Source: Acidobacteriota bacterium
GTDB taxonomy: Bacteria; Acidobacteriota; Blastocatellia; UBA7656
Direction: 5' to 3'
Assembly (NCBI GenBank): GCA_040754075.1
Contig: JBFMDH010000022.1
Span: forward strand, 1 to 64,000
Length of the DNA stretch: 64,000 nucleotides
The notes below the pieces were generated by a model. That model had not been told where the DNA came from. It worked only from the letters and a program-made list of their open reading frames with translations, and did no database searches. Positions 590 through 50,259 of the stretch are shown piece after piece; position 1 is the stretch's first letter; every line of letters begins with the position of its first letter. The translations under genes were made by a program, and so were the position numbers.

Positions 590-982
590 ATGGAATTATC
601 GAAAACCAAAAATACGCTTTTGTGGGTGCTGCAAATTCTTCTTGCCATTTTTTACATCGCTCAGGCGGTTCTCAAGTTAATGGGAAGTGAAGAGGTTGTG
701 GCGAACTTCAAACGCTGGGGCTTCCCCTCAGGCTTTCATCTGGTTATCGGCGGAGTTGAATTACTCGGCGGCTTGCTGCTGCTCTTTCCCAAAACCGCAG
801 CTTACGCAGCTATCGGGTTAATTTTGGTGATGATTGGCGCAGCGTTTACGCACATTCTCAACGGCGAAGGCGCGATGGTCATTATGCCGATTATCCCGCT
901 GCTTTTGCTCGCCGTAGTTGCCTACTTTCGAGGCGGTTGGGGTACAAAAGGAAGGCTGTCCAGGCTGGATGCCAACCAGTGA
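590..982 (+). CDS. DoxX family membrane protein
   Basis: A 130-residue integral membrane protein with four hydrophobic segments (about residues 10-30, 46-66, 68-92 and 95-113), the usual size and layout of the DoxX/DoxX-like family. Family members sit in the inner membrane and are often linked to redox or thiol stress, but no reaction can be assigned here. A strong Shine-Dalgarno (GGAGGAG, about 575-581) fixes the ATG start. It lies 67 bases upstream of an ECF sigma factor gene in the same direction, so the three-gene set DoxX-sigma-anti-sigma may be one transcription unit in which the membrane protein is a target or partner of the sigma system. Confidence 0.8.
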   Translation: MELSKTKNTLLWVLQILLAIFYIAQAVLKLMGSEEVVANFKRWGFPSGFHLVIGGVELLGGLLLLFPKTAAYAAIGLILVMIGAAFTHILNGEGAMVIMPIIPLLLLAVVAYFRGGWGTKGRLSRLDANQ

Positions 983-1049
983 ACCGCCATTTTGTGAACG
1001 AGAGATGTAATAGCAGGATATAAAATGAGCATATTTTGTACCCGGAGAT

Positions 1050-1595
1050 GTGGTGTCGAAATTCGATAACATTCAACGAAAGACCAATTTCGAGCGTCAG
1101 GTTATTGCTTATGTAGATGACTTATTGAAGACCGCCACTCATATCCTGAAGAACCGACAGGATGCTGAGGATGCGGTGCAGGAGGCATATTTTCGCGCCT
1201 GGAAATATTTTGAGTCTTTTGACCCATCTACGGATGGAAGACCCTGGATGTACCGCATTCTCTTTAACGTCATCAATGGCAAATTAGGGAAACGAGCAAA
1301 GCTGGCTGAAACTCCTTTTGAGGCGATGGAGAATGCTGACCTGCCCGCAAGTAAGGTTTTGATATTCGATCCGGTTGCCAGTTTAGATGGGAGTGAAGTG
1401 GTGGCAGCGACCGAAAAATTATCGGCGGAGCACCGCAGCGTTTTACTACTGGTTATCGTGGAAGAGTTCAGCTACAAAGAGACCGCTGACATCCTCGATA
1501 TTCCGGTTGGCACGGTAATGTCCAGGCTGCACCGCGCCAGAAAAGAGATTCGCGCGATTCTTAATCGAAAGCGCGCGACAGGAACTTCGCATTGA
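1050..1595 (+). CDS. RNA polymerase ECF-type sigma-70 factor
   Basis: A 180-residue sigma factor with only regions 2 and 4, the ECF layout. Region 2 lies at about residues 18-85, with the acidic stretch RQDAEDAVQEAYFRAWKYF. Region 4 lies at about 125-175, with helix-turn-helix ETADILDIPVGTVMSRLHRA. There is no ATG: two consecutive GTG codons (1050 and 1053) are candidates, and the GGAG at 1044-1047 is better spaced for 1053. The next gene, 44 bases downstream, encodes a zinc-finger anti-sigma protein with one membrane span, the expected partner. The regulated promoter is not identifiable from sequence alone. Confidence 0.9.
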   Translation: MVSKFDNIQRKTNFERQVIAYVDDLLKTATHILKNRQDAEDAVQEAYFRAWKYFESFDPSTDGRPWMYRILFNVINGKLGKRAKLAETPFEAMENADLPASKVLIFDPVASLDGSEVVAATEKLSAEHRSVLLLVIVEEFSYKETADILDIPVGTVMSRLHRARKEIRAILNRKRATGTSH

Positions 1596-1639
1596 TGCCA
1601 TCCTGATTGAACTACTGAAGGGTAGGTGGTGGAGTATTT

Positions 1640-2404
1640 ATGAATTGCAAGGAAACCCAGGAACTCATTCAATTGTTTTTGGATAGTGAATTAGACTCGC
1701 GAAATACGCTCGATGTGCAGGCACATTTAGAGACCTGTTATGCCTGTACGCGACAACTAGACGCTTATGCCGAACAGGATCGGTTGCTTAAAGACCGAAT
1801 CAAAACCGAAAAGGTGGATAGCCGTCGGCTTCTTGACAACATTCGTGGTGTGATGGAGGAAAAGCCTGTCACCGTTAAGCCGCGATGGTTTGCGTTTGAT
1901 GGATGGAAGCGGGTTGCCGCGATCATTGTACTTGGCTTTTTAATCACCTTTTTCGCCTTACAATCCTTTCTCCCGGGCGGCAACAGTAAGGTGTATGCTG
2001 ATGTGGTCACCGACCATGCCAATCATTGCTCAATGGAGGCAATGATGGGTATTGGCAGCGATAGCGCAGAATTTAATCTACTGGTGCGTCAATATGGTGG
2101 TCTTGTCAGAGTGCCTGATCTTTCGACCTTTGGGTACGCTAGCCCGCAGGCGCGTCCCTGTCTGATAGACGGGCTTGATTTTCTTCATATCGCTTTTTAC
2201 AGCCCGAATGCCAAACCGATTTCATTGTTTGTGCGCCCACACCAACCGGGGTTGATCACGGATCGTTTAACCCTGTTCCAAAAAGGCAATTATCGGGTGG
2301 CGGCACTCGCCCCAGCCGGAGTTGACCTGATCGTTGTTACCTCCGGTGATGAGTCGCAGGCGAAAGACCTTGCCGAGTTGATCAGCAACCAATTACAGGG
2401 CTAA
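1640..2404 (+). CDS. Transmembrane anti-sigma factor, zinc-finger type
   Basis: 254 residues. The N-terminus carries a zf-HC2 (ZAS-like) pattern: Cys3, His29, Cys33, Cys36, with the HxxxCxxC core seen as HLETCYAC. This is the domain that clamps ECF sigma factors in the cytoplasm. A single membrane span follows at about residues 92-111, then a ~140-residue periplasmic domain (112-254) that could sense the signal; it contains Cys32-distant cysteines near residues 130 and 174 but no domain I can name. It is encoded directly after its presumed sigma partner. Release may require regulated proteolysis or a thiol/metal change, which is inference. Confidence 0.85.
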   Translation: MNCKETQELIQLFLDSELDSRNTLDVQAHLETCYACTRQLDAYAEQDRLLKDRIKTEKVDSRRLLDNIRGVMEEKPVTVKPRWFAFDGWKRVAAIIVLGFLITFFALQSFLPGGNSKVYADVVTDHANHCSMEAMMGIGSDSAEFNLLVRQYGGLVRVPDLSTFGYASPQARPCLIDGLDFLHIAFYSPNAKPISLFVRPHQPGLITDRLTLFQKGNYRVAALAPAGVDLIVVTSGDESQAKDLAELISNQLQG

Positions 2405-2412
2405 GCACGAGG

Positions 2413-2520
2413 CTAAACCAGAACTTAAAACATCGGCACACTCGATAAGGCGAGAATACCGATAAACTAAGGCTTTTCGTCATAATGTGGTGTGTGCCAA
2501 TCTTCTGCATTCCGGTTTGG
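2413..2520 (+). repeat. MITE-like repeat, copy A
   Basis: A ~108 bp element with terminal inverted repeats (2413-2423 CTAAACCAGAA; 2510-2520 complement CCAAACCGGAA). It shares its ends and most of its interior (blocks GGCACACTCGAT, CCGATAAAC, TCTGCATTCCGGTTT) with the reverse complement of 5644-5748. It lies just after the anti-sigma gene and before the 3' end of the response regulator gene. No coding capacity. Confidence 0.75.
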
Positions 2521-2603
2521 TAGTTCAATGGCGCAGCCCCATCGGCTGCGAAGTGTCACGTCGGGGAGGACGGCAAGCACCTCCACACAGTTTACAGGAT
2601 GGG

Positions 2604-3239
2604 CTAGTCGGACGGTCTGGCTTCGAGTATGAAGCGGGCGATTTCAACGCGGTTACTGAGTCCCTTCTTGGCAAGAATGTGACTGACGTGATTTTCAACC
2701 GTCCTGACGCTGATGTCGAGTTCGGCGGCGATCTCTTTATTGCTGAACCCGCGCGCCACCGCTTCGGCGATCTTCAACTCGGCATCGGTCAAATCCTCCA
2801 GGTAATGGCGGGGAGAGGGTAACGCCTCTGCCGCGCCCAGCATCCGCGAAAATTCGGCGCGGGTGCGCTCGACGCGGTTGAAGATAGCCAGAATGACCGC
2901 GAGCAATTCGTCCGGCTCAAACGGTTTGGTGATATAAGCGTCCACCCCCGTCCGAAAGCCTTCGACGCGGTCTTCTTTCTGGTCTTTCGCGGTCAGAAAA
3001 ATCACCGGAATCAGGGCAGTTCGCGGCGACGAACGGATGCGGTGCACAAGTGTGTGGCCGTCCATCCCCGGCATTCTCACGTCGCTGATGATCAAATCCG
3101 GGAGGGACTCGGTGAGACTCACCAATGCGTCCCTGCCGCTGCGCGCGGTGCTGACGTCGTAGCCCTCCAACCGCAGACAGGCGGCGACCGCGCGCAACAA
3201 GTTCGGTTCGTCGTCTACCACAAGAAGCCGTTTAGCCAT
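2604..3239 (-). CDS. NarL/FixJ-family response regulator
   Basis: 211 residues. The receiver domain occupies about 1-120, with acidic pair Asp9/Asp10, phospho-acceptor Asp53 (ISDVRMPG) and Lys105 (TKPFEP). A LuxR-type helix-turn-helix follows at 148-205 (ELKIAEAVARGFSNKEIA, then VRTVENHVSHILAKKGL). The ATG at 3239 overlaps the TGA of the upstream kinase gene by one base, indicating translational coupling; a longer in-frame start inside the kinase gene is less likely. The pair forms a complete two-component system, with this protein the DNA-binding output. Codon use is clearly more GC-rich than in the genes beyond 14 kb. Target genes are not evident; the divergent gene at 5257 is a candidate. 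Confidence 0.9.
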   Translation of the reverse strand: MAKRLLVVDDEPNLLRAVAACLRLEGYDVSTARSGRDALVSLTESLPDLIISDVRMPGMDGHTLVHRIRSSPRTALIPVIFLTAKDQKEDRVEGFRTGVDAYITKPFEPDELLAVILAIFNRVERTRAEFSRMLGAAEALPSPRHYLEDLTDAELKIAEAVARGFSNKEIAAELDISVRTVENHVSHILAKKGLSNRVEIARFILEARPSD

Positions 3240-5077
3240 CAATTTTGCTCCTCGTCCGCCAAGCCGTTCTCCTGACTCCCCCACCTCGGCAGAGAGATGG
3301 TGAACGTGCTGCCGATCCCGGCGATGCTTTCTACAGAGATGCGTCCGCCGATCCCTTCGATGATTGTTCGCCCCAGGTAAAGGCCAAGTCCAACACCCGG
3401 CGCTTCCGCGACCTCTTCACTCACTTCAAGTAAAGGGTCAGTGACGCCAAGGCGAGGGGCGTGCCCGCGATAAAACTTCTCAAAGATGAATGGCAGGTCT
3501 TCAGCCAGAATGCCACGCCCGGTATCGGCAACCTGAATGACTACCTCATCCCCCACACTTTCGGCACGGATGCGAATTCGTCCGCCGTCAGGCGTATACT
3601 TGACGGCATTTTCAACCAGCCCGCACAGGGCACGCCGCAGGGCTGCGCGGTCGGCGAGCACCTGCGGCAGGGTTTCGGGGAGTTCGGCGCTGAGCAGGTG
3701 GCGGTGCGCCTCGGCACTGTGACGGGTGATGGTGAGGGTTGAGTTAACCACTTCCCTTACGTCCACCGGATCAAGGGTGATGTTGAAGGTGCCGGACTCG
3801 ATGCGGGAAAGGTCAAGCAGGTTCAGCACCAGATCGATCTGCCGGTCGCACTCTGCCTCTATGGTATCCAGGAATTCTTCGCGCTCTTCCAGGCTCACCT
3901 TTCCGCGCCTGAGGACGCGAACCAGCGTTTTAACTGTGGTCAGCGGAGTCCGCATCTCATGCGAAACGCCACTCACAAAATCTGACTTCAACCGGTCAAG
4001 CTCTTTCAGCCGCATCTCGCGCTCTTCAATCTCTTGTGCCATGAAGTTAAAAGAGGTGCGAAGCTCTTCAAATTCGCCGGCGGCTGCAAAGGTCGCGCGT
4101 GTGGAAAGCTCTCCCGCGCCGAACCTCTGGGTGGCTTGACTCAGCCCTCGTATAGGCTGAACGACTCCCCGCGCCATCACAATCGATGCCAGGATTGCCA
4201 GCAATACTCCGGCGAGGCTGAACAGTAGAAAGCGGTTGAGTTGCGCCTGCGCCGGAGCATACAGCGTGTCGCTGGGCAGCCCGACCAGAGTGACGCAGCC
4301 GGTATCCCCGACGCGCGCCATACCATAAACCCGCCGTATTCCGTCAATCGGGCTTTTAAGCTCGATCATGGCAGTCGGGTTGTCGCCTAATGCTGAGTAA
4401 AACGGCGAGTTGCTCATGTCCTTGCCGAGATAGGTTTCGGGGCTGGGGTTGCGGTAAAGGATAATGCGACTCTGCGGGCCAAAGACGGCGAAGACGGATT
4501 GACTGGAAAGCTTGATTTCTTTCAGAAAAAAATTGCTCAGGGTGCTGACATCGATTTGCGCCACCGCCGCGCCACCGCGACTCATCGGCACCGCCAGCAG
4601 GAAAATCCCGCGCGGGTCGCCCGACGGCCAATCCGTATCCACCACCCATTTCCTCTCCCGCAGTTGGGTTAAGATTTTGTTCGCCACGTCTGTAGAAAGC
4701 GCGGGTGCGTTGGAAGGCTCTGAAATTGTCACCTCACCTGATGAATTCAGAATACGAAGTCCGATCCAGTGCGAGCGGCTGGTGACCACCAGATCAAGCA
4801 GGTGCTGCAACTCAAGCCGCGGCGTCGGTCGTTCATCGAAATTCGCGGCTACGGTCGTCAGGGGTTCCCGCTGGGATTCCAACCATTGCTCAAAGGCGAC
4901 GGCGGTGATTTCGGCTTGCAATTTTATCGAATCCTCGAGCTGGTCACGAGTGGCATTTGACATCGCCCAGAGACTCACAAACCCCACGAGGGCGAGCGGC
5001 AACGCGACACCCGCCGCATAAACGAGCAGCTTGAAGCGAATTCCACCTTTAAAACCATCGCGGCGCATATGCATCAA
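3239..5077 (-). CDS. Membrane sensor histidine kinase with Cache-like sensor domain
   Basis: 612 residues. A membrane span at about 15-36 and another at about 283-303 enclose a ~245-residue extracytoplasmic region of Cache/PAS-like character. HAMP follows at about 304-356, HisKA with phospho-acceptor His373 (SGVSHEMRTPLT), and HATPase_c with N box (LVENAVKYTPDGG, Asn490), G1 (DTGRGI, 518-523) and G2 (GVGLGL, 561-566). All catalytic motifs are intact. It precedes and overlaps the NarL-type regulator by one base. The ligand is unknown. The kinase-regulator pair together with the small gene at 5257 is enclosed by two inverted MITE-like repeats. Confidence 0.92.
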   Translation of the reverse strand: MMHMRRDGFKGGIRFKLLVYAAGVALPLALVGFVSLWAMSNATRDQLEDSIKLQAEITAVAFEQWLESQREPLTTVAANFDERPTPRLELQHLLDLVVTSRSHWIGLRILNSSGEVTISEPSNAPALSTDVANKILTQLRERKWVVDTDWPSGDPRGIFLLAVPMSRGGAAVAQIDVSTLSNFFLKEIKLSSQSVFAVFGPQSRIILYRNPSPETYLGKDMSNSPFYSALGDNPTAMIELKSPIDGIRRVYGMARVGDTGCVTLVGLPSDTLYAPAQAQLNRFLLFSLAGVLLAILASIVMARGVVQPIRGLSQATQRFGAGELSTRATFAAAGEFEELRTSFNFMAQEIEEREMRLKELDRLKSDFVSGVSHEMRTPLTTVKTLVRVLRRGKVSLEEREEFLDTIEAECDRQIDLVLNLLDLSRIESGTFNITLDPVDVREVVNSTLTITRHSAEAHRHLLSAELPETLPQVLADRAALRRALCGLVENAVKYTPDGGRIRIRAESVGDEVVIQVADTGRGILAEDLPFIFEKFYRGHAPRLGVTDPLLEVSEEVAEAPGVGLGLYLGRTIIEGIGGRISVESIAGIGSTFTISLPRWGSQENGLADEEQN

Positions 5078-5256
5078 TGATTTCCAAATGCGAACCTGCT
5101 CAACATCGTGAGATGATTTGGAAAGTAAAGTATAGCACTCCCTACTTCTCCCCTAATAGCGGGAAACACCTAGGCGATGAGAGTGATTTCACAGTATTTT
5201 TCACCGTCCTTAAATCGCTATCGTAATCTATCAAACCATCGTTAAAGGATTAGAGC

Positions 5257-5559
5257 ATGATTTTCTACATCGGATCGAAACAGTTTGGCGGATCGTCCGC
5301 TGTCGAGGTCACACGAAAAATAGAGGGCGATTGCGCGGCATATCACCAGGAGGGAGGGACGGTGCGCGACTTCATATCCTGGTCGCTGCTACAACTCGAA
5401 GGACAGTTGCCGCGGAGAGAACTTGCCGTCAGCGACCACGTCAGCGACGAAACCCTGGCGTTCAGTTATTTGTGTCTGCTCGATCGGTACGGGTTAGGTG
5501 AATTAGACTGCCTGACGGAAGCAAATCAACATCACCCTGCAAAGATGAATGTCCGGTAA
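5257..5559 (+). CDS. Small hypothetical protein divergent from the kinase gene
   Basis: 100 residues, soluble, no signal peptide or membrane span, no family I recognise. It is acidic, with a predicted helical middle (RDFISWSLLQLEGQLP) and a second helical block (SDETLAFSYLCLLDRYGL). The start is ATG with a weak AAAGGA about 11 bases upstream. It is transcribed divergently from the histidine kinase, with a 179-base shared promoter region, and lies inside the pair of MITE-like repeats, so it may be controlled by that two-component system. It could be a false ORF, but its codon use matches that of the neighbouring kinase. Confidence 0.5.
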   Translation: MIFYIGSKQFGGSSAVEVTRKIEGDCAAYHQEGGTVRDFISWSLLQLEGQLPRRELAVSDHVSDETLAFSYLCLLDRYGLGELDCLTEANQHHPAKMNVR

Positions 5560-5643
5560 ACTGCACGGATGACTTTATAAGTATAAACACTCAGACCGAA
5601 TAAGGGTTCATACAGATGATCGGTTGAACAAATAATTTACCAT

Positions 5644-5748
5644 CTAAACCGGAATGCAGATGCTTGGTACACGACACATTAAGAATAAGCCCGGTTTATC
5701 GGCATTTTTTCAACATCGAGTGTGCCAACCTCATGCTTTCTGGTTTAG
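5644..5748 (-). repeat. MITE-like repeat, copy B (inverted)
   Basis: A ~105 bp element in the opposite orientation to the copy at 2413-2520. Terminal inverted repeats are CTAAACCGGAA (5644-5654) and the complement CTAAACCAGAA (5738-5748). Interior blocks match copy A with substitutions and small gaps, so the copies are related but diverged. It lies between the small gene at 5257 and the ankyrin gene. Confidence 0.75.
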
Positions 5749-5817
5749 ACAGGCGCTTCTGGGTAGATTCAGCCGAATGCCTACCCATAAGCTTTACTAA
5801 CCAGGTAAGGAGATAAC

Positions 5818-6465
5818 ATGAAAAAACAAGGAGTTTTAACATGTGCGCTGGTTCTTTTGATTTCAGCGGTCGCTTTCGGAAAGGATGACAAAGTCACTTT
5901 GCACGAAGCGGCAAGGAAAGGGGATACCGATAAAGTCAAAGAGTTGTTAGCGGGAGAGGCGGATATCAATTCAAAAGATCACACCGGGCGCACGCCGTTG
6001 ATGGAGGCGGCATACTGGGGTCGCGCCGACACGGTTGCCTTTTTGCTTGAGAAAGGCGCGGACGTGAACCTGAAGGATAAGCGCGGGCTGACGGTCTTAA
6101 TCGCCGTATCGCAGCCCGGTCACCATAAAATTGTTCAGGCGCTGCTGGCAAAGGGGGCTGAGGTGAACGCCAGGAACAACGAGGGCAGTACCGCCTTGAT
6201 CGAAGCGGCGGCTAACGGTCGGGCAGAGATTGTCGAAACCTTGCTGCTGGCCGGCGCCGACGTTAATGCCAAGAAGAATAACGGCCGCACGGCTCTGATG
6301 ATGGCTGCCTATTTCGGGCACCCCAAAGTGGTGAAAGCCTTGCTTGACCGGGGCGCGAAGCTCGGCGAGAAAGACAACTCCGGTTATGTGGCGTTGGATT
6401 TTGCCAAAAGCGGAGATCACAAAGAGGTCATTGAGATGTTGACTCATGTCCAGGCAAAACAGTGA
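5818..6465 (+). CDS. Secreted ankyrin-repeat protein
   Basis: 215 residues. An N-terminal signal peptide (about residues 1-21, basic then hydrophobic, ending VAFG) is followed by five to six ankyrin repeats of about 33 residues with the typical [14 protein letters not shown] and GHxKVVxALL words (about residues 28-212). The protein is therefore probably periplasmic and acts in protein binding; no partner can be named. The start has a clear AAGGAG eight bases upstream. The product ends immediately before a universal-stress-protein remnant. Ankyrin proteins of this size often partner with catalases or other stress enzymes, but nothing here proves that. Confidence 0.85.
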
Positions 6466-8317: not shown

Positions 8318-11300
8318 TTGATCCATTCATTGCCAGCGCCGGAAAATCCAGGCACCCTGGCGGCTCAATTGATGGTACACCTGATCTCCCATAACCACTG
8401 GGATCGGGAATGGATATTCACCGCCAACTACACCAACCGCTGGCTGGTCTCCTTCTTTGATAACCTGCTAAGGGTCTTGGAAACCCAGCCCGAATATCGT
8501 TTCGTTCTCGACGGACAAACAGCGATCATTGAGGACTATTTGAGTCAGTTATCTCCCGCAGACGCCCGTCAGTGTGAACAGGAACTGAGTAAATATGTAA
8601 AACAAAACCGGCTACTCGTCGGCCCGGCTTACCTGCAACCGGACTGGGCGTTGGTGAGCGGCGAAGCGCTGGTGCGCAATCTGATGGTTGGTCACAAAAT
8701 GGCTGAAAAGTTGGGCGGCGTCATGAAAGCCGGCTGGATGCTCGATAACTTCGGTCAGATTGCCCAGGCGCCGCAGATCTGCAAGGGCTTTGGCATCGAC
8801 GGGGTGTTCATCTGGCGGGGCGTGGCTATGGACGCTGAGAACCTCAAGTCAGAGTTCTGGTGGGAATCTCCCGACGGCTCAACCGTGTTGGCTATCTACC
8901 TCATTAACAGTTATCGCAACGCTATGGTGTTGTCGCTGACCCGGGAGATCGCCGGGCAGCGCATTCTCTCGGAAGCCCAAGCGTTGCGATGCTTTGCTTC
9001 AACCCCCAATGTTCTCCTTATGAATGGCTACGAGCAGGTTCCCTGGCCCGACGACGTGCTGCCGATCATCAAGGAGTTTAACCACAGCGTTACCGAGAAC
9101 CTGAAGTGTGTTCAGAGTACACCGCCCGAATACCTGGAGGCTATCAGGTCATTCAATCCCAACCTGCCAAGACTCAAAGGCTATCTTTACAGCGGGTTCT
9201 ACATGCCTGTGCTGAAGGGCGTCTTCTCCAGCCGCAGCCACCTCAAGTTGCTCAATAATGAATGTCAGAGAGAGCTTGAGCGCTGGGCTGAGCCGTTTGC
9301 CACGATTGCCTGGATGATGGGAGCGGAGTACCCCAAGGATAAACTTGAGAAAGCCTGGAAGACATTGATGCTTAACCAGGCGCACGATGACATGTGCGGG
9401 TGCAGCATAGACAAGATTGCCCGCGATATGGAGTCCCGGTTTGCCGAGGTCTATCAAAGCGCCTATGACATCAGTGAGACCAGTTTGCGGACGATTGCTG
9501 ATGCGGTAGACACGTCGCGCGCCGATAGTCTGCTCGCCATCGTCGTCTTCAACCCCTCGCCCCGCGTGCGCAGCGATGTCATCAGTTTCTCACTTGACCT
9601 GCCGGCTTCGGTCGAATCATTCAGCATAAAAGATGGCGGCGGGAAGTCCGCGCCATATCAGATCACGCGGCGTGACGAAAATAAGGTAGACCTGTTCCTC
9701 TACGCAACGGATATTCCCTCACTCGGCTATAAGACCTATTACCTCAAGCCTGGGAGTGCAGCGAATGAATTATCGGAAATGGTGATTGCTTCAGCCGAAG
9801 GGCGAACGCTTGAGAATGGTCACCTGTTCGTCCACATCAACGCGGACGGCACGCTAAACGTTACTGAGAAAGCGAGCGGCCACTTCTATGAAAATCTCGG
9901 CCATTTTGAGGACGGCGGTGACGCGGGCGACACCTACGACTACTCTTTTCCAGCGTGCGACCAGGTGATCACCAGCCTCGGCGAGCAGGCAACCATCTCA
10001 CTGGTTGAGCGGGGACCATTGCTTGCCAGGTTCAGGGTTGAAATCAACCTGAACCTCTCGGAGCGCCTCACTGAAGATCGCCAATCGCGAAGCAAACAAA
10101 CTCGCAGGTTCCCGATTGTGTCCTACGTAGAGTTGACTGCCGGTTCGCGTCGGGTCGAAGTGAAAACTCTGCTCACCAACATCGTTAAGGATCACCGCCT
10201 GCGCGTCATCTTCCCTACGGGTATTCAGTCCGATTACGCATACGCCGAGGAGCCGTTCGATGTCGCCAAACTGTATGTCGCTGAAGACCCTCCTCCGAAA
10301 GAACTGCCGGAGAGGGTGCGTAACCTGCTGCTTGCCGGCCGCTATACCCGACCGATCAACACCCACCCGTTTCAGAATTTTGTTGACTACAGCGACGGGA
10401 CGAAAGGCTTGGCGATCATCAGCCGCAGAGTTACCGAATATGAAGTGCTGCCGGAAACGGGTGCCATTGCCCTGACGCTTTTGCGCTCTGTGGGGTGGCT
10501 TGCCCGCTACGACCTGCTGACGCGCGTCGGGGACGTAGGCCCTCATATCTTCACACCCGAAGCGCAGTGTCTGGGCGAGCATGTGTTTCATTACGCCATC
10601 TACCCTCATGGCGGTGATTGGTTCTATGGCAAAACACCTTTGGAAGCTTTTTCCCACAACCTCAGACTTCGCGCTGTGCAGACCTATTCCCCGGGTGTGT
10701 TGCCCGATGAGTTAGGGTTTGTCAGTTTGACAACCGACAGTCCTGAGGGGGCTTTCCGGCTGACCGCATTGAAACGCTCTGAATCCGGGGACGGCGTCAT
10801 CATCAGGTTTTTTAACACCCTGGAGACCGCTGTACAGGGCGAAGCAAGAACCTGGTGGACTGCAATGGAGAAAGCGTTTCGGGTTAACCTCAACGAGGAA
10901 GAACAGGACGAACTCCTTCATGATAAGGGCTTGGTGAAGGTACAAGCCGGGCAAAAGGAGATTGTCTCTCTGAAGCTTAAACTCATGCCGGGACTACAGA
11001 TTGATGCTCAGTATTTTGACGCGGCAAAGCTACTTCCGCCCTTGCCGCCGGGAGACAAACCGCCAGTCGCCGACCTTCCTCCTGTGCTTACCAAAGAGGA
11101 TGTCCAAGCCGAGGAGGATCGAGTAACGCGCCTGGAGGCAGCTTTGCTAAACGCGAAGGCTGGAGTTTACACCCTGGAAGATGAGATCGAACGCACAGGC
11201 GGTGCCGCCATCGACCTCAGTAAGCAGGTCGAGTTACAGAAGAAGAAAATGGAAGTCGCCACGCTGACTCGTCAACTCAACGAGAGCCGAATCTCGGCGC

Positions 11301-11470
11301 TGCTCAACAAGCAGCTTTTCATTACCAACCAGATCGAGAGCGAGCTTGAAGAAATTGGTGAAGCGATGAGTTGGTCGAGGACCAAGAAACGCGCCAGCGA
11401 ATACCTCGTCCATTACTATGAAAGTCTCCTCGAAAAACAAACCCTGGAGGTAAAGTTAAAGCCGAAATAA
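8318..11470 (+). CDS. Glycoside hydrolase family 38 alpha-mannosidase
   Basis: About 1,050 residues. The N-terminal GH38 catalytic domain opens with HLISHNHWDREW (zinc ligands His and Asp29) and has the nucleophile Asp143 in GWMLDNFGQIAQAP. The MngB-like layout (helical middle, beta-sandwich C-terminal half to about 920) follows. Residues ~935-1045 form an extra charged coiled coil (KEDVQAEEDRVTRLEAA onward), unusual for the family. The next genes make mannosylglycerate, and MngB-type GH38 enzymes cleave (phospho)mannosylglycerate, so this enzyme probably recycles that solute; alpha-mannan breakdown is the alternative. No signal peptide. Start uncertain: TTG 8318 lacks a well-spaced site, ATG 8372 sits right before the domain, and AAAGGAG at 8284-8290 precedes an ATT at 8297. 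Confidence 0.88.
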   Translation: MIHSLPAPENPGTLAAQLMVHLISHNHWDREWIFTANYTNRWLVSFFDNLLRVLETQPEYRFVLDGQTAIIEDYLSQLSPADARQCEQELSKYVKQNRLLVGPAYLQPDWALVSGEALVRNLMVGHKMAEKLGGVMKAGWMLDNFGQIAQAPQICKGFGIDGVFIWRGVAMDAENLKSEFWWESPDGSTVLAIYLINSYRNAMVLSLTREIAGQRILSEAQALRCFASTPNVLLMNGYEQVPWPDDVLPIIKEFNHSVTENLKCVQSTPPEYLEAIRSFNPNLPRLKGYLYSGFYMPVLKGVFSSRSHLKLLNNECQRELERWAEPFATIAWMMGAEYPKDKLEKAWKTLMLNQAHDDMCGCSIDKIARDMESRFAEVYQSAYDISETSLRTIADAVDTSRADSLLAIVVFNPSPRVRSDVISFSLDLPASVESFSIKDGGGKSAPYQITRRDENKVDLFLYATDIPSLGYKTYYLKPGSAANELSEMVIASAEGRTLENGHLFVHINADGTLNVTEKASGHFYENLGHFEDGGDAGDTYDYSFPACDQVITSLGEQATISLVERGPLLARFRVEINLNLSERLTEDRQSRSKQTRRFPIVSYVELTAGSRRVEVKTLLTNIVKDHRLRVIFPTGIQSDYAYAEEPFDVAKLYVAEDPPPKELPERVRNLLLAGRYTRPINTHPFQNFVDYSDGTKGLAIISRRVTEYEVLPETGAIALTLLRSVGWLARYDLLTRVGDVGPHIFTPEAQCLGEHVFHYAIYPHGGDWFYGKTPLEAFSHNLRLRAVQTYSPGVLPDELGFVSLTTDSPEGAFRLTALKRSESGDGVIIRFFNTLETAVQGEARTWWTAMEKAFRVNLNEEEQDELLHDKGLVKVQAGQKEIVSLKLKLMPGLQIDAQYFDAAKLLPPLPPGDKPPVADLPPVLTKEDVQAEEDRVTRLEAALLNAKAGVYTLEDEIERTGGAAIDLSKQVELQKKKMEVATLTRQLNESRISALLNKQLFITNQIESELEEIGEAMSWSRTKKRASEYLVHYYESLLEKQTLEVKLKPK

Positions 11471-11662
11471 AAGAGTTGTTTGGGTGGCAAAAACGCCCGG
11501 CGCTGTTTTGCCATAATTTAATCAATGCCAATAATCCAATCATTTGCCACAGAATTACGGCGCTGTGAAGATTGCCGTTAGAAATTCTAAAGCAACGAAT
11601 GAATAGGAATTTAACCTTGTCCCATAAAAGTATGATCTTGTGGGAATCTTATGGAGATCATT

Positions 11663-12862
11663 ATGCGAATAGAACGTCCCCGCGAAGCGCAACGTTTCGG
11701 TGCCAATCTGATTTACGGCGTGCAAAAAGTCTATGAACTCGATTCAGGTCCGCTCGCCGAGCCTTTATATGAACCTTATTTTGTCATCCGGCAGGTCCCG
11801 TACGAAGCGCTTCACGAAGTCGAAAAGCAGATGGCGATCATTGTGCCGATCAAGGGCGAACGCTTGAGGTTGATCGAAGGAGTGCTCTACGGCATCCCTC
11901 ATGCCTGCCTGACGATTGTCGTGTCGAACAGCCCCCGCGAACCGGTTGATCGCTTTAACATGGAAAAAAATGCCATCGAAAATTTCAACACCTTCAGCAG
12001 AAAAAATGTCATGGTCGTGCATCAGAAAGACCCGGTTTTGGCAAACGCTTTCGCCAGCAGCGGGTACAGCGAGATAGTCGATCAAACGGACAGGGTGGCA
12101 GACGGCAAAGCCGAAGGTATGATCATCGGGCTGATGCTGGCGCGGCTCGCGGGAAAGAAGTACGTCGGGTTTATTGACGCCGACAACTATTTCCCGGGAG
12201 CCGTCTTCGAGTATGTGCGAGTGTATGCAGCCGGTTTTGCCCTAAGCCAGTCGGATTACGTGATGGTGCGAAATCTCTGGCACAGTAAACCCAAGGTTGT
12301 CGAGTCGAGTTTATATTTCGCCAAGTATGGGCGCACTTCCCTGGTGACGAATCAGTATTTAAATCGCCTGATCAGCTATCACACGGGGTTTGAGACCGAA
12401 GTGATCAAGACCGGCAATGCCGGAGAGCACGCGCTCAGCATGGATCTGGCTCTCTTGCTGGACTATGCCGCCGGTTATGCGGTTGAGCCTTATCACTACA
12501 TTGATCTGATAGAGAAATTCGGCGGCTTGCAGGAAAGCCCGTACCCGGAAGTCATGCGGCAAAGCGTCGAGATTTACCAAATTGAATCGCGCAACCCGCA
12601 CCTGCACGCCTCGAAAGGCGACCCGCACATCCAGGATATGATCAGCGCGTCTTTGCGAGCCATTTACTATTCTCCGGCTTGCCCTGACGCGCTCAAAATC
12701 GAGATTCTTCATGAGATGCGCCGCCGCCGAATTCTTTCCAAAGAACAGGAGCCTGCGCCGATTACTCGCTATCCGGCGCTAGCCGAAGTCTCAGCGGAGC
12801 CTTTTGCGAACGCCCTTTCCGGCCAAGCCTATTTGCCGCTCCTGGAAGCGCTTTCGTTATAA
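11663..12862 (+). CDS. mpgS: Mannosyl-3-phosphoglycerate synthase
   Basis: 399 residues, family GT55. It transfers mannose from GDP-mannose to 3-phosphoglycerate, the first step to the compatible solute mannosylglycerate. Visible marks are the N-terminal RIERPREAQRFGA, the VPIKGERLRLIEGVL and VVSNSPREP blocks, GKAEGM near residue 148, and the metal-binding DAD (Asp172/Asp174) in GFIDADNYFPG. The length matches the family. The ATG at 11663 has GGAG six bases upstream; the alternative ATG at 11651 lacks a good site. The phosphatase for the second step starts five bases after the stop, so the two are surely co-transcribed. Cytoplasmic. Confidence 0.93.
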   Translation: MRIERPREAQRFGANLIYGVQKVYELDSGPLAEPLYEPYFVIRQVPYEALHEVEKQMAIIVPIKGERLRLIEGVLYGIPHACLTIVVSNSPREPVDRFNMEKNAIENFNTFSRKNVMVVHQKDPVLANAFASSGYSEIVDQTDRVADGKAEGMIIGLMLARLAGKKYVGFIDADNYFPGAVFEYVRVYAAGFALSQSDYVMVRNLWHSKPKVVESSLYFAKYGRTSLVTNQYLNRLISYHTGFETEVIKTGNAGEHALSMDLALLLDYAAGYAVEPYHYIDLIEKFGGLQESPYPEVMRQSVEIYQIESRNPHLHASKGDPHIQDMISASLRAIYYSPACPDALKIEILHEMRRRRILSKEQEPAPITRYPALAEVSAEPFANALSGQAYLPLLEALSL

Positions 12863-12867
12863 ACAGA

Positions 12868-13701
12868 ATGAAGAGAGTCGAATCACCCCGGTTGATTATC
12901 TTTACCGACCTGGATGGAACCTTGCTGGATTTAACCAGTTATTCCTTCCGCCCGGCTATTGAGGCATTGACTCGGGTAAAGGAAACCGCCACCCCGCTGA
13001 TCTTTTGTTCGTCAAAGACTGCCGCAGAGCAGTTGTACTATCATAAAGAAATGGGCATCCGTGCCCCGTTCATCGTCGAGAACGGCAGCGCCATTTTCAT
13101 CCCGCAAGATTATTTCACTATCGCCTATCCGGCACAGCGCACCACATTTGCTTACCGGGTCATCGAGATGGGAGTTTCAGCGGCGGTGATTAACCAGAGA
13201 CTGCAATCGATGCGGGATGACCTGAAATTACAATTTCAGATGTACACCGAATTATCTATCAACGCGCTTTGCCGCCTGACCGGGCTTGACCGCCAGGCGG
13301 CAAGCCGCGCCAGGCTGCGTGACTATAGCGAAACGATTGTTGGGTTATCTCGCCCGGAGGCAGAGACCCTCCATCAGGCGTTGGCGCCCGCAGGTCTATC
13401 TTGCACATGGGGGGGCAGGTTTTGTACCGTCACCGCTGCGCAAATTGATAAAGGGCAGGCAGTCAACCGGCTGACCGATTTATTTCAAAAGCAGTATGGG
13501 GCTGTCATAACCGTCGGCATTGGTGATAGCGCCAATGATGCCTCGTTCCTTGCAGCCGTTGACGAAGCCTTCCTGGTTCAACAGCCGGATCAGAGGTGGG
13601 AGCCGATTTCCACCGGCTACTGCAAACCGGTCGAAGGGGTAGGTCCGATTGGCTGGAATCGCGTAGTCAGCAATCTCCTCAACATCTATTACTATTTTTA
13701 G
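12868..13701 (+). CDS. mpgP: Mannosyl-3-phosphoglycerate phosphatase
   Basis: 277 residues, HAD superfamily (Cof/MPGP type). Asp14 and Asp16 (FTDLDGTLLD) are the nucleophile and acid/base, SS-K occurs in FCSSKTAAEQ, a Lys is in KGQAVNRL, and the metal site is GDSANDASF. It removes phosphate from mannosyl-3-phosphoglycerate to give mannosylglycerate, an osmo- and heat-protectant. It begins five bases after mpgS. Together the two genes form the two-step pathway, with the GH38 enzyme upstream as likely turnover enzyme. No regulator is adjacent. Confidence 0.92.
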   Translation: MKRVESPRLIIFTDLDGTLLDLTSYSFRPAIEALTRVKETATPLIFCSSKTAAEQLYYHKEMGIRAPFIVENGSAIFIPQDYFTIAYPAQRTTFAYRVIEMGVSAAVINQRLQSMRDDLKLQFQMYTELSINALCRLTGLDRQAASRARLRDYSETIVGLSRPEAETLHQALAPAGLSCTWGGRFCTVTAAQIDKGQAVNRLTDLFQKQYGAVITVGIGDSANDASFLAAVDEAFLVQQPDQRWEPISTGYCKPVEGVGPIGWNRVVSNLLNIYYYF

Positions 13702-14020: not shown

Positions 14021-14061
14021 TTCGTAAACCGGCGTCGGAGGTTCGAGTCCCTTCGCTGGCA
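14021..14061 (+). pseudogene. tRNA-Thr(CGU) 3' fragment (putative att site)
   Basis: Bases 14021-14027 read TTCGTAA, an anticodon loop for CGU. They are followed by a 3' anticodon-stem strand, a short variable region, a T arm with TTCGAGT loop (14042-14048), acceptor strand CGCTGGC (14054-14060) and discriminator A. The matching 5' acceptor, D arm and 5' anticodon stem are absent upstream, and the T stem is imperfect. Identity that begins exactly in the anticodon loop is the usual footprint of a tRNA-targeting integrase, so this is read as the displaced end of an island lying to the left. Confidence 0.6.
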
Positions 14062-14076
14062 TCAATAAAAATCAAT

Positions 14077-14110
14077 AAAAAGAGCAAGCGCCATATGGCT
14101 TGCTCTTTTT
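14077..14110 (+). terminator. Strong bidirectional terminator
   Basis: A perfect 13-bp stem (14077-14089 with 14098-14110, arm AAAAAGAGCAAGC) with an 8-nt loop gives a T-run on the plus strand and the same on the minus strand. It follows the tRNA fragment and ends the convergent queA-like transcript from the other side. It is probably the original terminator of the tRNA gene. Confidence 0.85.
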
Positions 14111-14218
14111 ATTGCACACAACCACGCAGGCTTTCATTCCTGACCGCATTTCAACTAATTGGTGATGGTCTTAAAAAACGCCGATAAGATATGCCTTGCC
14201 GATTAATCAGATAAATTT

Positions 14219-15223
14219 TTAACCTCCGGCGATAATCAAACAAGCATCGCCAAACTCATGGGTCAGGTAATCGTGGTCATCAAGATGCTGACTAACCCTC
14301 GCTAGAATGGACGCAGGCAGGAAGGCTCCAAGCAGTTGATAATGGCTTTCCGATACTTCATGGGTGCCGGTGATGATGCCGTCCACGAATTGCAGTTTAT
14401 GACCGGAACTCAATTTAAGTTCGGTGAAGCCCGCAAGACCGAGGCTTGCGCTTTCCAAGGCGCGCACCACTGAAGTGCCTACCGCAATCACGCGACCACG
14501 CTTGCTTCGCGTTTGCCTGATCATCTCCATCGTCGTCGGTGGAATCTCGAATTTTTCAGCGAGCGGCAAAACCGCATCAATACCTGCATCGCCGGTTGAT
14601 GACAAGCCTGCGCCATGCGTGAGCGAGGCGATTTGCACCCCTTTTCTTATCAACCGCAACAGCAATTGCCAATTGAAGGCGTGCCCGGCGCTCGGCATTT
14701 CAACTGCCCAGGGGCGGCTGCCGTAAACATTTTGCACCGACCAGAGTTTGAGTTCTTTATTCATATAAGCGTATTGCACAGGCTTGCCGTATCGGTAAAT
14801 GCCGCGCCAAAGTTCTGTATTTGAGAGGTTGAACTCAAGATGCAGCAGCCTGTCTGAAATTTCGCTTTTTCTGAGAACGCTAGCCTGGAAATCGTCAGAG
14901 AAAATAATTTTCTCGCCGGTTTGCAGTTGCGGCGGCGAGGGGCGGTTCTCGGTCGGCGTTTGCCAATCCCCTTCACCCAGAATAACTGCCTGCCAGACGC
15001 TGGCATTCAATTGTGTACTCAGCCGAACTTCCACCTGCCGGTTATGTTGATCCCGACCGAAAAGCGAAGCCGGCAAGGTCGCCGCATCGTTGATCACCAA
15101 CAGGTCGCCCGATTGCACAAAATCAGGCAGAAATTCGATAGTGCTGTCGCATAGTTCGCCGCCACTGACAACCAGCAACTTGTCTTTCATTTTATCTGCT
15201 CGAGGCGCGCGTGCTGCTTTCAT
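14219..15223 (-). CDS. QueA-like S-adenosylmethionine:tRNA ribosyltransferase-isomerase family protein (divergent)
   Basis: 334 residues of the QueA/COG0809 fold. Shared marks are SGDLLVINDAATLPASL near the N-terminus, VYGSRPWAVEMPSAGHAF mid-protein, RVIAVGTSVVRALESA, and DGIITGTHEVSESHYQLL near the end. QueA makes epoxyqueuosine in tRNA, but the canonical LHVGxGTF and AxPTAGLHF motifs are replaced by LTHGAGLSS and EMPSAGHAF, and the first ~15 residues of normal QueA are missing. It may therefore be a paralogue with another substrate. The start at 15223 lies inside the 3' end of the SDR gene, so the two are coupled; ATG 15190, one base after the SDR stop, is the alternative. Confidence 0.8.
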   Translation of the reverse strand: MKAARAPRADKMKDKLLVVSGGELCDSTIEFLPDFVQSGDLLVINDAATLPASLFGRDQHNRQVEVRLSTQLNASVWQAVILGEGDWQTPTENRPSPPQLQTGEKIIFSDDFQASVLRKSEISDRLLHLEFNLSNTELWRGIYRYGKPVQYAYMNKELKLWSVQNVYGSRPWAVEMPSAGHAFNWQLLLRLIRKGVQIASLTHGAGLSSTGDAGIDAVLPLAEKFEIPPTTMEMIRQTRSKRGRVIAVGTSVVRALESASLGLAGFTELKLSSGHKLQFVDGIITGTHEVSESHYQLLGAFLPASILARVSQHLDDHDYLTHEFGDACLIIAGG

Positions 15224-15950
15224 AAACCACCTTCCAATCTGAGGCAAGCAGTCTTGCCCCGTTTGCTATTTCGTTGCCATGTTCGATTATCGAAACGATT
15301 TTTTCAGCCACTGCATCAGGCGGAAGTAAACTGCTACGGTCGGCTTCGGGCATCGCCTCGGCGTGCATACGGGTATCCATCTCACCGGGATCAATGCTCA
15401 GGAAACGAACGCCGGTGTCGGCTAATTCCAACGCGGCGATGCGCGTCAGATGATCCAGAGCCGCTTTGGAAGCGCCGTACGCGCCCCAGAATGGATAAGC
15501 CTCAACTGCCGCGTCAGAAGAGATGTTGATGACCACTCCGGTTCGTTTGAAAATCATGGAGCCAACCACCGCTTTGATAAGGCGAAACGCGCCAAGAGTG
15601 TTTACCTGAAGGGCGCGTTCAAAGTCTTCACATTCCGTATCCGCAATTAACCGCAAAGGCACAGGCCCGAGCGTACTGGCATTATTGATGAGGATGTCGA
15701 TTGTGCCAGCTAAAGCCGCTGCCTGACCGACGATGGGATAAATCTCTTCTTTGTTGCCGACATCGGCAGCGATTCCATAGGCGACGCCGCCTGCCCTGAT
15801 GATATCCTTTACCGCATCATCAAGTTTTGATGATTCACGAGCCACGAGAACAACTTTCGTACCTCTTGAAGCAAGGCTCTGTGCCAGCGCATACCCCAAC
15901 CCCTGGCTGCCACCGGTGATCAGTGCCGATTTTCCATTAATATCAAACAT
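15192..15950 (-). CDS. SDR family NAD(P)-dependent oxidoreductase
   Basis: 252 residues, classical short-chain dehydrogenase. The dinucleotide motif is TGGSQGLG (12-19), then NNAS (89-92), catalytic Ser144/145, Tyr158 and Lys162 (YGASKAA), and a PGEMDTRMH loop. Cytoplasmic. The substrate cannot be read from sequence. It is the first gene of a two-gene unit with the QueA-like protein, overlapping it, and is divergent from an XRE-cupin regulator across a 94-base gap, which may control it. Its start has AGGAGG about eight bases upstream. Confidence 0.9.
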   Translation of the reverse strand: MFDINGKSALITGGSQGLGYALAQSLASRGTKVVLVARESSKLDDAVKDIIRAGGVAYGIAADVGNKEEIYPIVGQAAALAGTIDILINNASTLGPVPLRLIADTECEDFERALQVNTLGAFRLIKAVVGSMIFKRTGVVINISSDAAVEAYPFWGAYGASKAALDHLTRIAALELADTGVRFLSIDPGEMDTRMHAEAMPEADRSSLLPPDAVAEKIVSIIEHGNEIANGARLLASDWKVVYESSTRASSR

Positions 15951-34878: not shown

Positions 34879-36267
34879 ATGCAATCGGACTTGCTCTCAG
34901 CGATTCTATCTTCTATTTCCAAAAGGGTAAATTATCAAAGTTTCAATACCTGGTTTAAACCGATTTCTTATGCGGCAATTGATAATTCCACTTTTTTGCT
35001 AAAAGTACCCAATGAATTTTGTAGAGATTGGATAATCAATAATTATTCAGATGTTTTAGAAGAGTCTATCAGAGAATTGGATTTGGACGGCTATAATTTA
35101 AGCTTCTTAATTGAAGAAAAAGGAAAAGCTGAGGGGGTAGTTAATAATGGCAATTCACAAATTGCGAATAAGCCTGCTAAACCACCATTGATTAATTTTC
35201 ATGATCTGACCGTAACGGGAACCCAGCCAGCGTTTGAACTGGAAAATGTTGAACCGCTGCTCAACCCAAAATATACATTTGAAACTTTTGTGGTTGGTTC
35301 CTGTAATCAATTTGCTCATGCAGCCTCCCTGGCTGTCGTGGATATGCCATCTAAAACCTATAACCCACTATATATTTATGGCGGTGTAGGCTTGGGGAAA
35401 ACTCACTTAATGCATGCCATTGGGCATGCGATTAAGGGTAGAAATAATAAGGTAAAGCTGGCTTATATCTCTTCGGAAAAGTTTATGAATGAGCTGATTA
35501 ATGCCATACGTTACGATAAAACCATTACTTTTAGAGAAAAATATCGAAATATTGATATATTATTGATGGATGATATTCAATTCATTGCCGGCAAGGAGCG
35601 AACCCAGGAAGAATTTTTCCATACTTTTAATGCGCTATATGATTCGCAAAAACAAATCGTTATCTCAAGTGATTGTCCGCCACGAGAGATTCCCACACTG
35701 GAAGAACGTTTACATTCCCGGTTTGAATGGGGATTAATTGCAGATATTCAGCCACCTGATCTAGAAACTAAGGTTGCAATTTTAAAACGAAAGGCTGAAT
35801 TAGAAAAAATAGATCTGCCGGATAATGTAGCCTTGTTTATAGCCAGTAAAATAAAATCGAATATACGCGAGTTAGAAGGGTCGCTGGTAAGACTTGTTGC
35901 TTATGCTTCACTGAAAGGTTTGCCTTTAGGGATAGAGCTTGCCCAGGAGGTTCTCAAGAATATTATTGAAGAAGAAAGTGCTGGCATTACCATCATTCAA
36001 ATTCAAAAAGTAGTCGCGAACTACTATGGTTTAAAGGTGTCAGACCTTAAATCGAAGAATAATTCCCGCAGTGTTGCAGTGCCAAGACAGGTAGCAATGT
36101 ATTTATGTAAATCACTTACAAAAACCAGTCTTCCAGAGATAGGTCGAGAATTTGGTGGAAAACATCATACAACAGTTTTGCACAGCATAAATAAAATTGC
36201 TCAGCTTTGTAAGACAGATAAGGTTTTCCACAAGGTTATCAACAGTTTAATTGTTGATATTAAATAA
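34879..36267 (+). CDS. dnaA: Chromosomal replication initiator protein DnaA
   Basis: 462 residues. Domain I lies at about 1-80, with a short, Asn-rich domain II (~85-120). The AAA+ domain has Walker A GGVGLGKT (168-175), Walker B with Asp231/Asp232 (LLMDDIQF) and the arginine-finger region LHSRFEWGL. Domain IV carries the box-recognising helix-turn-helix ([15 protein letters not shown], ~422-436). It binds DnaA boxes and melts the origin. dnaN follows after a 317-base region packed with boxes, and one box lies inside the 3' end of dnaA itself. Its codon use is more AT-rich than the distant genes. Confidence 0.98.
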
Positions 36268-36477
36268 AATACTAGTTTTTTCCACAGTTAGGTGTTGTGG
36301 AACCGCTGTGGAACCTGTTGAAAAAATCTAGTTTAGAAAAAGGTTCCACAGAAAAGGCGTTTTTTCCACAAGTTTACAACAGGGTTTTCCACAACCTGAA
36401 TTTACAAATAGCTCTTTATTTTCTTAATTTAGATGTATGGCTCCACTTTTCCACAGCCACTACTACTACTACTATAG
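36224..36477 (+). other. Replication origin (oriC): DnaA boxes and DnaA-trio
   Basis: Eight 9-mers of the form TTTTCCACA or GGTTCCACA occur at 36224, 36278, 36342, 36362, 36385 and 36447 (plus strand) and 36296 and 36307 (minus strand; starts of each 9-mer given). The last box (36447-36455) is followed by GCC and then five ACT triplets plus ATA (36459-36476), which fits the DnaA-trio motif that guides strand opening. A/T-only sequence continues to about 36515. This is the unwinding end of the origin, directly before dnaN. Confidence 0.88.
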
Positions 36478-36584
36478 AAAATAGTATTTTTTTTATTAGG
36501 AAAATTAGTATAAGAGGCAGTCGTTGAGGAAAATTCTTAAAGAATAAAGGAATGAGTAAAAAAATGAGTTGAAAGGAGCTTTTT

Positions 36585-49503: not shown

Positions 49504-50259
49504 ATGACCACATCGCCAAACTCAGACTTATCGGTTGCCATCGAATTTCGCGATGTTGGTCTGCAAATCAATGATAAAGTTTTGGTCAAAGATTTGCGCT
49601 TTGCCATCAAACCCGGTGAGACGCTTGTCCTGCTGGGTCGCAGTGGTTCGGGAAAAACCACCACTTTGAAACTCATCAATCGTTTGCTCGAACCGACGAG
49701 CGGGCAAATCTTGATTGACGGCACGCCAACAAGCGAATGGGATATTATCAAGTTACGCCGACGCATTGGCTATGTCATTCAGGAAACCGGCTTGTTTCCA
49801 CATTTCACGGTTGAACGTAACGTCGCATTGGTTCCCCGTCTGGAAAACTGGGAAGCAGAAAAAACCCGCCGACGGGTTCGAGATTTACTTGAACTCGTCG
49901 GATTAAATCCACAGGTTTTTGCACAGCGTTTTCCACAGGAACTTTCCGGCGGGCAGCGTCAAAGAGTGGGCGTCGCGCGCGCTTTAGCCGCTGACCCGCC
50001 GATTATTTTAATGGACGAGCCGTTCGGTGCGCTCGACCCGTTGACGCGCGCGGAACTGCAACAGGAATTCGCGAATTTAGCGAAAAAGCTCAATAAAACC
50101 ATCGTTTTTGTCACTCACGATATCCGTGAAGCCTTCAAACTGGCAACGCGCATCGGACTTTTTCAGGACGGAAAGTTGATTGAGTTGAGTGAACCTAAAG
50201 AATTTCTTGAATCCAAAAGCGTCGAAGCCAGAGCCTTTTTGGAAACCCTGAACCAATGA
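49504..50259 (+). CDS. egtV: ABC transporter ATPase, OpuCA/EgtV-like
   Basis: 251 residues. Walker A GRSGSGKTT, Q-loop VIQETGLFPHFTV, signature LSGGQRQRVGVARAL, Walker B IILMDEPFGALDP and switch His in VTHDIREAF. The sequence class is the betaine/choline (OpuC) group; no CBS domains are attached, as in EgtV. It overlaps the permease gene by four bases (ATGA at 50256-50259). The symbol rests on position next to egtD and on the fused partner; the osmolyte importer OpuC is the alternative. Confidence 0.82.
   Translation: MTTSPNSDLSVAIEFRDVGLQINDKVLVKDLRFAIKPGETLVLLGRSGSGKTTTLKLINRLLEPTSGQILIDGTPTSEWDIIKLRRRIGYVIQETGLFPHFTVERNVALVPRLENWEAEKTRRRVRDLLELVGLNPQVFAQRFPQELSGGQRQRVGVARALAADPPIILMDEPFGALDPLTRAELQQEFANLAKKLNKTIVFVTHDIREAFKLATRIGLFQDGKLIELSEPKEFLESKSVEARAFLETLNQ

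Follow-up and report, generated by a model that had tools for sequence, protein, structure and literature searches.

A GH38 mannosidase gene linked to mannosylglycerate synthesis genes in four phyla: a candidate turnover cassette

Do producers of mannosylglycerate (MG) recycle this solute with a dedicated hydrolase encoded in the same cluster as the synthesis genes? The question is made testable by a locus of an Acidobacteriota bacterium (GCA_040754075.1, contig JBFMDH010000022.1), of which positions 1–64,000 of the forward strand were analysed (the window). ORF calling and profile matches placed three ORFs between 8318 and 13701, all on the + strand, in the order GH38, mpgS, mpgP. Their position agreed with an earlier note on this DNA, and the three assignments were borne out by profile and structure matches.

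The synthesis genes and their surroundings

MpgS joins GDP-mannose to 3-phosphoglycerate, and MpgP then takes off the phosphate to yield MG. The ORF called at 11651–12862 matched TIGR02460 over its full length (480.6 bits; cut-off 351.2) and PF09488 with 490.4 bits against a cut-off of 27, and the solved MpgS structures 2zu7 and 2wvk were matched over almost the entire length. The called start was displaced by a conserved ATG at 11663 that aligned with the starts of all five relatives, which places mpgS (mannosyl-3-phosphoglycerate synthase) at 11663–12862 (+). After 5 nt it is followed by mpgP (mannosyl-3-phosphoglycerate phosphatase, HAD-IIB; 12868–13701, +). The product of this gene scored 249.2 bits with the MPGP family profile TIGR01486, above the cut-off of 164.75, and 241.5 bits with the equivalog TIGR02461, slightly under the cut-off of 244.35; it also matched the MpgP structures 3ztw and 1wzc. 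The two genes adjoined each other in four of the five linked relatives as well and lay one gene apart in the fifth. At the level of sequence, the window genes are MpgS and MpgP, and the profile scores and structure matches uphold the earlier view of them as the MG synthesis pair.

Upstream, a gap of 192 nt (11471–11662, +) lies between the GH38 gene and mpgS. It had no match to a known RNA family, riboswitches included, and promoter-like and terminator-like matches in the cluster, this gap included, occurred at chance frequency. The three genes may be co-transcribed in the window, although this is uncertain because of the 192 nt that separate GH38 from mpgS. Downstream of mpgP, the 3′ half of a tRNA gene was read by eye at 14023–14061 (+) as tRNA-Thr with anticodon CGT, followed by a terminator-like stem of 17 bp (14073–14114). 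The fragment was the sole exact copy in the genome, its 5′ half was absent, and ARAGORN called no tRNA. This tRNA half next to the cassette is possibly the scar of an integration event.

The GH38 enzyme

The first gene (8318–11470, +) encodes a GH38 alpha-mannosidase of 1050 amino acids and cytosolic type, with all four Pfam GH38 domains (N, middle, C and C2) above cut-offs. Its TTG start at 8318 is consistent with the N-termini of two relatives (L016 and L020). An AlphaFold model built from 13 sequences reached a pLDDT of 84 and a pTM of 0.87 (an earlier model from seven sequences had a pLDDT of 50), and its best PDB matches were EfGH38 (5kbp) and SpGH38 (2wyi). The predicted active site (8396–9388, +) was located by alignment and numbering against the SpGH38 residues H13, D15, D125, H351, R149 and D232 (PMC2815779). 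The predicted zinc ligands are H27, D29, D143 (doubling as the nucleophile) and H356, and R167 is also kept; by alignment, the zinc site and nucleophile are intact. The predicted acid/base is E239. Nearly all other GH38 enzymes compared have Asp there, whereas every subfamily member readable at this position has Glu, a conservative change that leaves the family membership unaffected, since both sequence and fold support it.

Past position 890, all eight subfamily members carried an extension of 150–164 residues, compared with 0–23 residues in 14 other GH38 enzymes. In the window protein (residues ~890–1050; 10985–11470, +) it was modelled as three long helices, for which a Pfam search gave no confident match. 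No signal peptide was visible, so the enzyme should be in the cytosol together with MG; the other Acidobacteriota GH38 enzymes examined look secreted. The subfamily formed a fully supported clade of its own, separate from the MngB clade (100/100 each). It is about equally distant from the characterised GH38 enzymes (~32% identity to MngB; 27% to SpGH38 by structure alignment), and the substrate is therefore not readable from homology. The earlier label "MngB-like GH38" thus held for the family and failed for MngB itself: the score with NCBIfam PRK09819 was 535.6 bits, far under the cut-off of 1138, and the protein fell outside the MngB clade.

The proposal that the enzyme acts, as MngB does, on the 6-phosphate fared no better, given this tree position and the lack of an adjacent PTS gene. 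No PTS gene adjoined the cassette, either in the window or in the linked loci, whereas mngB-type loci of E. coli, Enterobacter and Exiguobacterium have one adjacent; an Exiguobacterium plasmid carries mngA-GH38-glycerate kinase-manA. A GH63 mannosylglycerate hydrolase (MgH, EC 3.2.1.170) was also considered and rejected for the window hydrolase, the domains and fold of which are GH38. Elsewhere in the genome, the best PF22422 protein matched arabinobiosidase/YgjK and not the Thermus MgH 4wva; PF22422 is too broad to decide on MgH, as control genomes, that of E. coli among them, give matches to it too.

Conservation of the gene linkage

Relatives of the window GH38 were found at seven loci when 84,980 species genomes were scanned, and at five of these MpgS and MpgP were adjacent. 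The linked loci came from four phyla: Acidobacteriota, Calditrichota (two), Ignavibacteriota and Desulfobacterota. The order GH38-S-P was found in four of the five, and a Desulfobacterales locus had the order S-GH38-P with gaps of 3 nt. The genes of the PRO9 locus overlapped by 4 nt. Within the window's family, GH38 and MpgS were both present in two genomes and both missing from five (both or neither in 7/7). In samples of 297 genomes each, MpgS was found in only two from Acidobacteriota and two from Desulfobacterota. With the genes taken as independent at this rate, the chance of at least five linked loci among seven would be ~3e-10, and 6e-6 at a rate of 5%, although the loci are not fully independent. 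The GH38-MpgS-MpgP linkage exceeds chance. The MpgS proteins linked to GH38 formed one group (support 83/85), with those of Thermus and Pyrococcus and an unlinked acidobacterial MpgS outside, and the topology was much like that of the GH38 tree.

The genome survey that the earlier note had called for thus revealed a conserved cassette. The opposite outcome that it had named, orthologues mostly lacking MpgS/MpgP and situated in mannan-degrading loci, did not occur: five of the seven relatives were linked, mannan-degrading neighbours were not observed, and none of the linked loci had further genes of this kind close to the cassette. Its idea of both arms in one cluster was likewise sustained, as far as sequence can tell, by a synthesis pair conserved together with a cytosolic-type GH38.

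The linked cassette was seen in only about four independent lineages. This rare and patchy distribution suggests horizontal transfer. Carriage of the cassette on plasmids was rejected: among 72,556 plasmid records there was no MpgS match, and the GH38 matches were distant only.

Two of the seven relatives, from KSB1 and Methanolliviera, belonged to genomes without MpgS. The KSB1 gene adjoins an SSF symporter gene (an apparent frameshift in this GH38 was traced to N-gaps in the assembly), and the Methanolliviera gene adjoins parts of an ABC importer. The KSB1 symporter is 63% identical to one whose gene, in a genome of Desulfobacterota, separates mpgS from a different GH38 gene, an arrangement that provides a second tie between GH38 and MG genes. 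Related GH38 genes in other Desulfobacterota adjoin genes read from sequence as ROK-like sugar kinases. The idea that the window's genome encodes an importer dedicated to MG was rejected: the KSB1/Desulfobacterota symporter had matches of only 32–34% there.

Proposed role and comparison with known systems

Conservation of the three-gene cassette in four phyla makes a make-and-recycle unit likely, and we consider it probable that the genes form a self-contained MG turnover cassette in which GH38 hydrolyses unphosphorylated MG. MpgS would couple GDP-mannose with 3-phosphoglycerate and MpgP would dephosphorylate the product to MG. Once there is no further need for the solute, the cytosolic, zinc-dependent GH38 would split it into mannose and D-glycerate with retention of configuration, and would so fill the role of the GH63 MgH of Thermus, though an unrelated enzyme. 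We infer MG as the substrate and hydrolysis as the reaction from sequence and gene context; the use of the cassette may be osmotic or related to starvation. The MG scaffold is one that GH38 enzymes can handle, MngB being active on phosphorylated MG (PMC2815779). A bolder version, which we hold to be rather unlikely, is that the GH38 defines a new MG hydrolase subfamily having Glu as acid/base, that its C-terminal helices gate activity (e.g., by ionic strength or oligomer state), and that the cassette is thereby a transferable osmolyte switch filling and emptying the MG pool.

Mycobacteria use glucosylglycerate to prime methylglucose lipopolysaccharide, and MG could by analogy be, instead of a free solute, a building block at the start or end of a larger oligosaccharide or lipid that contains mannose, with GH38 trimming or recycling the product. 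GH38 enzymes mostly act on oligosaccharides (SpGH38; PMC2815779) and the extra helical domain is unexplained, but the three genes alone are conserved, with no glycosyltransferase, acyltransferase or exporter common to the linked loci, and we find this reading unlikely. An enzyme with the usual alpha-mannosidase task of cleaving fragments of mannan or N-glycans, its place beside mpgSP being incidental or due to shared transfer, would suit the two importer-adjoining members without MpgS and the related genes beside ROK-like kinases. Linkage across four phyla despite reordering, all-or-none co-occurrence in the window's family, the absence of mannan-degrading neighbours and a cytosolic type unlike the secreted-looking Acidobacteriota enzymes make this reading improbable.

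MngB, functionally the nearest known GH38, takes phosphorylated MG (PMC2815779), and the window enzyme might similarly act on mannosyl-3-phosphoglycerate (or the 6-phosphate) as an overflow valve that gives back 3-phosphoglycerate. The phosphate on the MngB substrate stems, however, from the MngA PTS, and no PTS gene was seen in the linked loci. A hydrolase that took the intermediate away from MpgP would also use up GDP-mannose to no purpose; such a valve appears quite improbable. Least credible, and very improbable, is a mainly synthetic enzyme adding mannose to MG or glycerate by transglycosylation. Retaining glycosidases are capable of this and a changed acid/base residue could shift the balance, yet every catalytic residue for hydrolysis is present.

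If MG turnover by GH38 is correct, free MG would be broken down by a second, unrelated enzyme family, and this "thermophile" solute and its turnover would extend to Acidobacteriota, Calditrichota, Ignavibacteriota and Desulfobacterota. Automatic MngB naming of these enzymes would be corrected. No paper linking GH38 with MG synthesis was found in the open literature searched.

The cassette shares with the Thermus/Pyrococcus pathway two full-length enzymes encoded side by side and matching 2zu7, 2wvk, 3ztw and 1wzc; it differs in its link to GH38 and in an MpgS of the GH38-linked group. MngB of E. coli, which works with the MngA PTS and MngR, is likewise a cytosolic GH38 with a glycerate-mannoside theme and 32% identity over ~850 residues, but the window enzyme has Glu as acid/base, a C-terminal extension of ~150 residues and its own clade, and its neighbours are synthesis genes instead of a PTS gene. 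SpGH38 and EfGH38 (2wyh, 3lvt, 5kbp) share the core fold (TM 0.83–0.87 by target length) and the zinc site, whereas the window enzyme has Glu for the Asp acid/base, the C-terminal extension and a +1 loop reading GDVGP in place of GDWGY, and does not keep SpGH38 W764, a proposed alpha-1,3 feature (PMC2815779). The proposed job, cleavage of an unphosphorylated glycosylglycerate in its producer, is that of the GH63 MgH of Thermus HB8 (4wva), Rubrobacter and Selaginella and of mycobacterial GgH (PMC6608630), but those enzymes belong to an unrelated family with an alpha/alpha barrel, as opposed to the GH38 fold of the window enzyme.

Gene content and surroundings of the cassette

Three forward-strand open reading frames, located as in the earlier note, encode a GH38 alpha-mannosidase (8318–11470), mannosyl-3-phosphoglycerate synthase (MpgS, 11663–12862, conserved start codon ATG at 11663) and mannosyl-3-phosphoglycerate phosphatase (MpgP, 12868–13701). 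All three family assignments were confirmed by domain or profile matches and by solved homologues; MpgS exceeded the TIGR02460 cut-off, and MpgP exceeded that of TIGR01486 and fell slightly below that of TIGR02461. No further ORF of ≥120 aa was found on this strand between 8318 and 13701. The window is the first part of contig 22; the genome measures 7.58 Mb, and its family includes Blastocatellia bacterium UBA7656 (Acidobacteriota).

About 320 nt after mpgP, a lone tRNA 3' half with a 17-bp terminator-like stem was observed (14023–14114). The half resembles tRNA-Thr (CGT), is the sole exact copy in the genome and, with the stem, is possibly an integration or deletion scar. The neighbouring ORFs that were scanned yielded no integrase, and the contig begins 8.3 kb upstream of the cassette, so this reading remains a lead. 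The minus-strand gene at 14219–15247, which overlaps a short-chain dehydrogenase gene, encodes a QueA-like protein, probably a divergent paralogue (134.9 bits; QueA equivalog cut-off 324). A second compatible-solute system, an OpuA-type glycine betaine permease/binding-protein fusion, is located at 50256–51836. Adjoining dnaA and dnaN genes (34879–37697) follow a low-GC stretch (GC 0.37 at 32–36 kb), and the replication origin probably lies near them, about 21 kb from the cassette.

Distribution and phylogeny

In UBA7656, the same gene order was found, with GH38 and MpgS 70% and 72% identical to those of the window, plus MpgP. Both GH38 and MpgS were missing from the five other genomes of the window's family. 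In an even sample of Acidobacteriota genomes, MpgS occurred in 2/297 and this GH38 subfamily in 1/297. When 84,980 species genomes were scanned with a profile built from two sequences, seven loci with relatives of this GH38 were returned; the scan used two exact peptide patterns, and the census therefore covers close members only. MpgS and MpgP adjoined GH38 in five of the seven (UBA7656, PRO9, Melioribacteraceae, Calditrichaceae and Desulfobacterales). PRO9 is titled Deltaproteobacteria, yet its returned phylum was that of the Calditrichaceae genome; because the two are near-identical, the linkage counts as seen in about four independent lineages. Intergenic gaps were −4/−4, 106/−4, 15/175, 154/26 and 192/5 nt (the last in the window), and 3/3 nt in the Desulfobacterales locus, where the genes are reordered. 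The three-gene cassette is real, conserved and little-noticed, and its rare, patchy spread over phyla points to horizontal transfer.

The eight subfamily members formed a single GH38 clade (support 100/100). MngB and the mngA-linked Exiguobacterium enzyme formed a separate clade (100/100), and other bacterial GH38s also stood apart. In the MpgS tree, the six GH38-linked sequences clustered (83/85), followed by MpgS of a Desulfobacterota genome (G623); Thermus and Pyrococcus MpgS and an unlinked acidobacterial MpgS were placed apart. The main groups were shared by both trees, which paired the window with UBA7656 and PRO9 with Calditrichaceae, the pattern to be expected of genes that moved jointly. 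The conserved linkage supports the earlier proposal of a possible make-and-recycle cluster. The MngB-like label holds only at the level of the GH38 family: the subfamily has its own clade and should not bear the name MngB.

Other GH38 types were also encountered. The G623 locus (881–6382) encodes MpgS, an SSF symporter and a highly divergent GH38 (25% identity), a different mannosylglycerate-linked type. Three Desulfobacterota loci carry a GH38 subgroup with FHH replacing the usual HD zinc motif, adjoined in two of them by a ROK-like sugar kinase gene. On a mobilizable Exiguobacterium plasmid, consecutive genes for mngA, a GH38, glycerate kinase and manA make up a complete set for mannosylglycerate catabolism.

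Active site and fold of the GH38 enzyme

By alignment, the predicted zinc ligands H27, D29, D143 (nucleophile) and H356, and R167, correspond to H13, D15, D125, H351 and R149 of SpGH38 (PMC2815779). The predicted acid/base residue is Glu239, whereas SpGH38 has D232 (PMC2815779). Glu occupied this site in all subfamily members readable there; other GH38s compared had Asp, except for Gly in the mpgS-linked G623 enzyme. Beyond position 890, all eight members have about 150–164 residues, versus 0–23 in 14 other GH38s. The AlphaFold model (13 sequences; pLDDT 84, pTM 0.87) comprised a GH38 core and three long C-terminal helices, with EfGH38 and SpGH38 as the best PDB matches. No signal peptide was visible on the window GH38; distant GH38s of other Acidobacteriota examined had secreted-like N-termini, as judged by eye.

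Proposed role in mannosylglycerate turnover

Two members, from Candidatus Methanolliviera (an archaeon) and a KSB1 bacterium, had no MpgS throughout their assemblies. The former adjoins an ABC permease, with an SBP_bac_5 binding protein nearby, and the latter an SSF symporter. In G623, a symporter of the KSB1 type, 63% identical to it, separates mpgS from the distant GH38 gene; close copies of this symporter are absent from the window's genome. An importer with GH38 and no synthesis genes fits scavenging of outside mannoside, and synthesis genes with GH38 fit internal turnover.

The cassette is most likely a mannosylglycerate make-and-recycle unit. MpgS and MpgP would act as in their established families, and the GH38 enzyme would cleave the product, given that the genes stay linked across lineages, that enzyme and solute would share a compartment, that the catalytic site is intact and that MngB offers a precedent. 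Turnover may serve osmotic downshift, starvation recovery or carbon recycling. MngB itself acts on phosphorylated mannosylglycerate (PMC2815779). Producers that hydrolyse their own glycosylglycerates include Thermus and Rubrobacter, with the GH63 enzyme MgH, and mycobacteria, with the hydrolase GgH acting after nitrogen starvation (PMC6608630).
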